Source: Clostridia bacterium (GTDB taxonomy: Bacteria > Bacillota > Clostridia > Oscillospirales > Acutalibacteraceae). Taken from it: 49,030 nt of DNA. Made by a program: the position numbers and the translations under genes. This document shows, piece by piece, positions 8,318-9,262 of the stretch; position 1 is the first letter of the stretch; each line of letters starts with the position of its first letter. The notes below the pieces were generated by a model. It saw only the letters and a program-made list of their open reading frames with translations, searched no databases and had not been told where the DNA came from. Location of the stretch: NCBI GenBank assembly GCA_017416285.1, contig JAFQCU010000009.1:1-49030 (forward strand). The letters are read 5' to 3'.

Positions 8318-8346
8318 ATTGTAAATGCAAGGCATTTTTTTGTCAA
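8318..8346 (-). promoter_or_regulatory. Promoter of tcdA
   Basis: On the minus strand TTGACA (plus 8341-8346), a 17-bp spacer and TACAAT (plus 8318-8323), placed 32 bases from the tcdA start. Confidence 0.8.
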
Positions 8347-8353
8347 GTATGTA

Positions 8354-8360
8354 TGTCGAA
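8354..8360 (+). promoter_or_regulatory. Candidate 0A box
   Basis: TGTCGAA matches the consensus Spo0A-binding heptamer. It lies in the tcdA-spo0A intergenic region, eight bases beyond the tcdA -35 and 66 bases before the spo0A -35. Spo0A autoregulation is known in Bacillus. The heptamer also occurs by chance in coding regions of this window, so the support is positional only. Confidence 0.45.
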
Positions 8361-8419: not shown

Positions 8420-8448
8420 TTGACTTGATTTAAATGACATAATATGGT
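8420..8448 (+). promoter_or_regulatory. Candidate promoter of spo0A
   Basis: TTGACT (8420-8425), a 17-bp spacer and TATGGT (8443-8448), 37 bases before the start codon. A consensus TATAAT at 8396-8401 lacks a good -35 and could belong to a second promoter. Confidence 0.5.
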
Positions 8449-8485
8449 AAAATGTGTAAAAACGATTTACCGGGAGGCAAAATTA

Positions 8486-9262
8486 ATGGAAAAAAAGTTA
8501 AAAATTGTTATTGCAGATGATACGAGCGATTTTTGCAAAAATTGCTCCAATGTGTTGGAAAGCTACGGTATGAAGGTAATCCTTGTTCCCAAAGATGGGT
8601 TAAAGGTTTTATCAGCCGTAAAATCCGAAAAGCCCGACATTTTACTTACCGAAATTTTTATGCCAAACCTTGATGCATTGGGGCTTCTTGATGCATTAAA
8701 TAAGTTGGATAAAAAAGATGTACCTTTGGTTATGGTAATGTCAGCTTATGCTAATCCACGCATTGAAAAAGAAATCTTAAATGCCGGCGCATGTTACTAT
8801 TTCTTAAAGCCGTTTGACGTTAATATTATGGCCGAAAGAATAATAAAACTTTCGGGCTGGAAAAACGATAAATCACCTCTCGTACTTAATAACACCGCCG
8901 TTGGTGATAACGAGCTTGAAATTATGGTTACCGAAATTTTGCACCAGATTGGAGTTCCTGCTCATATTAAGGGGTATCATTATTTGCGTGAATCAATAGT
9001 TCTGTCGATTAAAAACAGTGAAATTATTAATTCAATCACTAAGCTATTATATCCGACTATTGCAAAAAATCACGCCACAACCGCCTCTCGAGTTGAAAGA
9101 GCAATACGGCACGCTATTGAGGTTGCGTGGGATAGGGGCGATATTGACGTCTTAAATTCTTACTTTGGTTACACAATCCAAAATCAAAGGGGAAAGCCCA
9201 CTAATTCGGAATTTATTGCAATGATAAGCGATAAGCTGCGTTTAAAATTAAAAATCGGTTAA
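8486..9262 (+). CDS. spo0A: Sporulation master regulator Spo0A with Glu at the phospho-acceptor site
   Basis: 258 aa. Receiver domain (about 4-122) and the Spo0A-specific DNA-binding domain (about 150-255), whose recognition segment [17 protein letters not shown] and [12 protein letters not shown] are essentially those of Bacillus Spo0A. The acidic pocket D11-D12, the Ser in place of the conserved Thr (VMSAYA) and the Lys of FLKPFD are present. The phosphorylated Asp is replaced: LLTEIFMP has Glu56 (codon GAA at 8651-8653) where Bacillus has LVLDIIMP. Glu at this position cannot be phosphorylated normally and in some regulators mimics phosphorylation. The ATG at 8486 follows GGGAGG with ideal spacing. 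Monocistronic, with a candidate 0A box upstream. Confidence 0.95.

Follow-up and report, generated by a model that had tools for sequence, protein, structure and literature searches.

The Spo0A protein of an uncultured clostridial organism, encoded in a 49,030-nucleotide stretch of its genome (hereafter the window), carries glutamate at the phospho-acceptor position of its receiver domain. By orthology it is an Asp-less Spo0A variant, without the phosphorylatable Asp of the textbook mechanism. Endospore formation is taught to be triggered universally by phosphorylation of Spo0A: the receiver is phosphorylated on an Asp, helped by an acidic pair and a metal ion, and a Ser/Thr and a Lys of the receiver read the phosphate. 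We consider it narrowly probable that the window Spo0A works without aspartyl phosphorylation, with the glutamate (Glu56) serving as an intrinsic mimic and the amount of Spo0A as the main determinant of its activity. Judged from the sequences, the protein is most likely still the activator of sporulation. Glu56 is also part of a wider erosion of the Spo0A receiver, found throughout the family of the organism, and this family-wide pattern exceeds the finding in the window itself.

The source genome is a metagenome-assembled genome (MAG) of 1.45 Mb in 37 contigs, 85% complete. Its spo0A gene (8486..9262, forward strand, as are all features given here) is an intact open reading frame of 258 amino acids plus stop. 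The product matches the NCBIfam Spo0A equivalog TIGR02875 over residues 3-257 (302.1 bits, cut-off 200) and the Pfam families Spo0A_C (PF08769; 151.2 bits, cut-off 25) and Response_reg (PF00072; 62.1 bits, cut-off 30.2). It is the genome's Spo0A orthologue, with both the receiver and Spo0A_C present. The receiver, defined by the PF00072 match, comprises residues 7-119 (8504..8842). Within it codon 56 reads GAA (8651..8653), which replaces the acceptor Asp by Glu in both sequence and translation, while the acidic pair Asp11-Asp12 (8516..8521), Ser86 (8741..8743) and Lys108 (8807..8809) of the conserved pocket are retained, as seen in the sequence and in alignment. The DNA-binding domain (8927..9238; 153.6 bits for Spo0A_C in a profile search of the genome) is very similar to that of canonical Spo0A, and residues 143-256 align with the solved Spo0A domains 1lq1 and 1fc3. 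On all three points, the Glu acceptor, the otherwise intact pocket and the near-canonical DNA-binding domain, the preliminary description of the window was correct. Spo0A_C occurs once in a profile search of this MAG, and no second canonical Spo0A was found in it or in the other Glu56 genomes searched.

A probable housekeeping promoter (TTGATT, a 17-base spacer and TAAAAT; 8425..8453), recognized by eye, precedes the gene, and similar elements lie upstream of spo0A in relatives. Position 8486 is taken as the start because it follows a putative ribosome-binding site, GGGAGG (8472..8477), and because the protein then aligns with its relatives from residue 1. A start at 8444 was rejected, as that ATG overlaps the probable promoter. 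Further upstream, two sequences resembling 0A boxes, TTTGTCAAG (8339-8347, two mismatches) and TATGTCGAA (8352-8360, one mismatch), form a pair (8339..8360) that is a candidate for autoregulation. The preliminary description had argued from an intact gene with a candidate 0A box that this Spo0A is still used. The gene is indeed intact; the weight put on the box was overstated, since TATGTCGAA is seen once upstream of spo0A against 0.12 expected per shuffle (P about 0.11) and is not significant alone.

The glutamate recurs among relatives, which come mostly from animal guts, judging by their titles. Position 56, obtained for 51 of the 70 genomes of the genus, is Asp in 44 and Glu in seven, the same number of Spo0A-Glu56 genomes that a DNA pattern for Glu yielded when all 70 were searched; Lys108 is kept in 50 of the 51. 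The preliminary description would have been refuted had this assembly alone carried Glu and its relatives Asp, which is not the case. Seven genomes of the genus share Glu56, as do other genera, and this rules out a sequencing or assembly error. Among 92 distinct Spo0A proteins (from 111 loci), 82 have Asp56, ten have Glu56 and none has another residue. Six of the ten form one clade of six genomes in the window's genus, with branch support of 100/99, and all six use GAA, so that Glu56 is fixed in a clade, a check that the preliminary description had proposed. The clade's loci derive from at least three sequencing projects, again by titles. Its nearest relatives are four Asp56 proteins (codon GAT), and outside these lies L036, from the seventh Glu56 genome of the genus (G069), again with Glu. 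This arrangement implies that Glu was either gained twice, or gained once and then reverted to Asp.

Glu56 is also present at L084, L103, L107, L265 and L271, in three genomes of genus g76, in two of genus g77, where Lys108 is lost as well, and in G365, where Lys108 is changed to Arg. Outside the family it occurs in G481 and G512 (one genus), in G472 and in a divergent copy in G531. The contig with L084 is filed under an alphaproteobacterial MAG and is probably mis-binned, because its Spo0A groups with the window's family. On the tree of the 92 proteins Glu56 requires four changes, at least three of them forced by starred branches. A FastTree of 200 proteins, with five trait columns masked, requires 12 changes (at least 10 forced), or 11 (at least nine forced) when L458, the very long-branched divergent copy of G531, is left out. 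Because some of its rows came from a pattern that finds Glu exclusively, this larger tree shows recurrence and not frequency. The pattern itself is unspecific: 5 of the 12 genus genomes that it matched proved not to be Spo0A matches, and in a wider search 8 of the 48 distinct places checked were Spo0A. It gives no frequency, since it also matched many unrelated genes. The trees show that Glu56 arose convergently.

The wider family was sampled at nearly one genome per genus (139 genomes, 135 genera). A Spo0A_C match was present in 123, and Spo0A was read from 114 of these (114 genera), 113 of them with a receiver. At position 56 these 113 receivers, the window's included, have Asp in 102, Glu in six, Asn in four and Trp in one, so that Asp56 is absent from 11. 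In other Clostridia, Spo0A was read from 65 of the 76 genomes that have a match, which gave 64 receivers, with Asp in 58, Glu in four, Asn in one and one masked. Lys108 is lost from 32 of 113 receivers in the family versus 3 of the 64 from other Clostridia (Fisher P 6e-5, in a test that excludes the window and takes no account of relatedness), and all five pocket residues are kept in 50 of 113 versus 49 of 64. Relatedness does play a part: a single clade of the tree contains 19 of the 32 Lys108 losses, and also Glu56 in four cases, Asn56 in two and the one Trp56. On the 200-protein tree the loss of Lys108 requires 14 changes, at least seven forced. Where Lys108 is kept, every readable non-Asp residue is Glu (10 of 10 in the 92-protein set, and 6 of 6 in the combined one-per-genus and other-Clostridia set, in which the masked row L434 is unreadable). 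Where it is lost, the non-Asp residues of the combined set are mixed (four Glu, five Asn, one Trp). Simple decay does not predict such a difference.

Loss of Asp56 or Lys108 is not tied to loss of the sporulation protein SpoIVA. A SpoIVA match is present in all 11 family genomes without Asp56 and in all 23 with Asp56 but without Lys108 (one being a fragment at a contig end), together 34 of 34, versus 69 of the 79 remaining genomes. Two of these cases come from genomes that are 99% complete, so that missing data hardly explain them: G130, a single contig, has Trp56, Gln108 and a full-length SpoIVA (L317, G130:C1), and G178, in two contigs, has Asn56 and Ala108. One genome, G206, encodes a Spo0A without any receiver (L381, L459; G206:C79:19500-24500). 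Its 124 residues make up the DNA-binding domain alone and are encoded by an open reading frame (2897-3271 of L459) in which a ribosome-binding site and ATG lead straight into that domain. It is the sole Spo0A_C match of the genome, which has a full-length SpoIVA, and the approximately 490 bases between the short spo0A and the next gene contain no receiver. A weaker match outside the family (G469) also reads without a receiver.

These patterns suggest that the family has repeatedly freed Spo0A from phosphorylation, a proposal that we make tentatively and with slightly less than even confidence. There would be three routes: a Glu mimic with the pocket kept, as in the window's clade and others; a full pseudo-receiver, with Lys108 lost and Asp56 changed to Glu, Asn or Trp; and loss of the whole receiver by deletion. 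Spore formation would then be initiated by the amount of Spo0A or some other input, and the master switch would receive no two-component signal.

The kinases of these genomes bear on the question of input. The source genome has 11 HATPase_c matches. Five are recognized as sensor kinases, each adjoining a response regulator; the others are SpoIIAB and two small ATPases, identified by eye, and three proteins of 628-664 amino acids that were not assigned to a class. No orphan kinase was recognized among the HATPase_c matches examined in this 85% complete MAG. Loss of orphan kinases was considered as a cause specific to Glu56 and is not supported within the genus, because the Asp56 sister G013 likewise shows paired kinases exclusively (three recognized sensor kinases). 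In four near-complete genomes of the family, all ten HisKA matches of G130 (Trp56) have an adjoining regulator, mostly by eye, and G178 (Asn56) has two, the partner of one lying off the locus and being placed by synteny. With the pocket kept, G083 has two matches without a regulator in view (L477 and L488, of 13), as does G173 (L478 and L472, of 5, L472 being cut at its start). This trend fits a loss of orphan kinases with the pocket, at n=4 and with regulators mostly assigned by eye. Spo0A might still be switched covalently, through modification of Glu56 itself or of a nearby Ser/Thr. Thr55, Ser86 and the acidic pair remain available, and phosphorylation and methylation of Glu are listed as conceivable in PMC4395418. 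The same source, in its available text, knows of no Glu phosphorylation in bacterial signalling, and with all five recognized sensor kinases of the source genome adjoining a response regulator such a modification seems very improbable.

In the six-genome Glu56 clade the receiver has a dN/dS of about 0.10 and the DNA-binding domain one of 0.038, and the receivers of two Asp56 sets give 0.066 and 0.088, all by a counting method and with dS near saturation. A receiver value of about 0.10 indicates purifying selection and not decay. The clade carries further substitutions, including Val57 to Ile and Ala84 to Val, and none of the listed tests for a partner substitution covarying with Glu56 was significant. 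The acceptor could in principle drift without functional meaning, if kinase input had already been lost in the genus. The wide pocket erosion in the family speaks for this, as does the Asp56 sister G013, in which an orphan kinase was likewise not recognized. Against it, the receiver is constrained to near 0.1, changes at position 56 go to Glu in every readable case with Lys108 kept, and the genus at large holds on to Asp56 and Lys108, in the proportions given above. We therefore regard drift under relaxed selection as distinctly unlikely.

The sporulation genes covered here are SpoIVA, SpoIIE and the spoIIA region. SpoIVA is full length and above its curated cut-off in all seven Glu56 genomes of the genus, and the SpoIIE match is full length in six of the seven, being in two pieces in G069. 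No genome among the 70 of the genus reaches the curated SpoIIE cut-off, which indicates that this family has diverged in the genus. Because SpoIVA and SpoIIE are kept, a loss of sporulation is judged unlikely. Upstream of spoIIE, all six genomes of the Glu56 clade carry TGACAAA, the 0A-box core in backward reading, twice, at a spacing of exactly 33 bp. Of the four Asp56 sisters, two have one core, one has two cores 38 bp apart and the fourth has cores only far apart, one of them altered. The 33-bp spacing of the clade (L215-L220) is missing from the sisters (L221-L224), and could possibly be a target-site change that accompanied Glu56. Measured against shuffles, boxes with at most one mismatch upstream of spoIIE are clearly in excess in three of the six clade genomes (P 0.003, 0.007 and 0 of 300). 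The excess is weak in G000 (P 0.07) and does not stand out in G061 (P 0.14), and G027 lacks any spoIIE box at this stringency. The regions upstream of spoIIA give mixed evidence. The core TGACAAA is present in three of the five Glu56 genomes read, G027 not being among them (G000, G052 and G061), and is altered to CGACATT in G016 and G063; the four Asp56 genomes compared all carry it, as CGACAAA or TGACAAA. None of the five Glu56 genomes has a spoIIA box within one mismatch. The spoIIE sites are better evidence than the single box upstream of spo0A.

These data also bear on the opposite reading, that Glu56 leaves Spo0A locked off, a weak or non-activating binder in a clade that no longer sporulates or uses it solely as a repressor. 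An Asp-to-Glu change alone is often insufficient for constitutive activity, with Spo0A named among the examples on the authority of Green 1991 (PMC4395418), and 15 of 68 Spo0A-bearing genomes were apparent non-spore-formers in another survey (PMC6136694). The altered spoIIA core in two of the five Glu56 genomes points the same way. Such a relic would not be expected to keep SpoIVA full length in 7 of 7 genomes and SpoIIE in 6 of 7, the spoIIE cores at a fixed 33 bp in 6 of 6, and both the receiver and the DNA-binding domain under constraint, and we consider it quite unlikely. The best reading is one of use independent of Asp phosphorylation, since Glu56 is real, fixed in a clade and convergent, the receiver is under purifying selection, and SpoIVA, SpoIIE and the spoIIE 0A cores are kept. 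The stronger suggestion of the preliminary description, a Spo0A that may be locked on, receives no such support, given that an Asp-to-Glu exchange often falls short of constitutive activity.

For this phosphorylation-independent use we envisage the following mechanism. Glu56 cannot be phosphorylated by the usual chemistry. Acidic, and longer than that of Asp, its side chain most likely contacts the retained Ser86 and Lys108, and this contact would hold the receiver in a partly active, dimer-competent state, perhaps aided by the other changes of the clade, among them those at positions 57 and 84. The restriction of readable non-Asp residues to Glu wherever Lys108 is kept supports such a mimic. 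The amount of Spo0A, governed by its own promoter and possibly by autoregulation, would then set the filling of 0A boxes at early sporulation promoters. We infer from the comparisons that the protein is not phosphorylated in vivo, that Glu56 acts by mimicry, that control is by level and that spores are actually formed. Glu is indeed described as a possible partial mimic of phospho-Asp, perhaps acting via the conserved T and K; in some pseudo-receivers, mimicry by the residue at the acceptor position has been disproved (PMC12632262). In Clostridioides difficile, sporulation is faster when Spo0A builds up faster from an inducible promoter (PMC5613124), which makes control by level plausible in the class. 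It is less probable, indeed unlikely, that the Glu56 receiver is not locked on at all and is toggled by a ligand, a partner or concentration-driven dimerization. Its maintenance under purifying selection, in a family where at least one genus has deleted the receiver, is what such toggling would lead one to expect. No candidate for a ligand or partner was seen among the 20 open reading frames scanned in the window, and the neighbours of spo0A are housekeeping-like: UvrC, a Na+/H+ antiporter-like protein, a TtcA-like protein, a malate/lactate dehydrogenase-like protein, RecJ and RelA/SpoT, with a ThiF/TcdA-like adenylyltransferase nearby on the opposite strand and topoisomerase I, SMC and others further along.

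Some genomes contain additional Spo0A sequences. G058 has three nearly identical spo0A copies (L132, L139 and L144) in three places; they share 97-98% DNA identity across about 1 kb and look like the cargo of a small mobile unit. G043, a genome of the window's genus, has a second, diverged full-length Spo0A (L140, G043:C39) with Asp56, 51% identical to the window protein. The additional Spo0A_C matches of G052 and G063 were rejected as second canonical copies, being short reading frames with a Spo0A_C-like domain alone: L141 (G052:C8; open frame of 127 amino acids) adjoins a recombinase-like gene and L142 (G063:C31; 108 amino acids) a single-strand-binding-protein-like gene, both identified by eye. 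Both may be carried by mobile elements.

All endospore formers are described as starting via Spo0A phosphorylated at a conserved aspartate (PMC11210211). A natural Asp-less or receiver-less Spo0A in genomes that keep their spore genes would break this rule, and would provide a natural experiment on whether mimicry of phosphate is by itself sufficient to drive a developmental switch. It would also bear on the decision to sporulate in uncultured Clostridia, many of which come from guts. No report of a natural Asp-less Spo0A was found in the open-licence papers searched.

Compared with canonical Spo0A, as in Bacillus subtilis and C. difficile, the window protein has the same domain order, a similar DNA-binding domain, the acidic pair, Ser86 and Lys108, and its clade likewise has 0A-box-like sites upstream of spoIIE. 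It differs in its acceptor, Glu in place of Asp, and its genome differs in that no orphan kinase was recognized among the HATPase_c matches examined. With the aspartate-less receivers or pseudo-receivers reviewed elsewhere (PMC4395418; PMC12632262) it shares the replacement of the acceptor, and Glu is the commonest such replacement (26%; PMC4395418). Those receivers often lose further pocket residues, whereas the window protein keeps all the others and is the otherwise conserved master regulator of sporulation. Neither review describes a natural Asp-less Spo0A, since Spo0A appears in one sentence and one reference of PMC4395418 and is absent from PMC12632262. On its own, the DNA-binding domain of Spo0A acts without needing phosphorylation (PMC3485338). 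This isolated domain binds 0A boxes unphosphorylated and has a natural parallel in the receiver-less protein of G206; it lacks the receiver that the window protein keeps. The same chemical change as in the window has been made artificially in NtrC. There, in work of 1993 attributed to Klose, changing Asp54 to Glu is said to have given activation without phosphate; the change in the window is natural, fixed and recurrent, and lies in another family of regulators.
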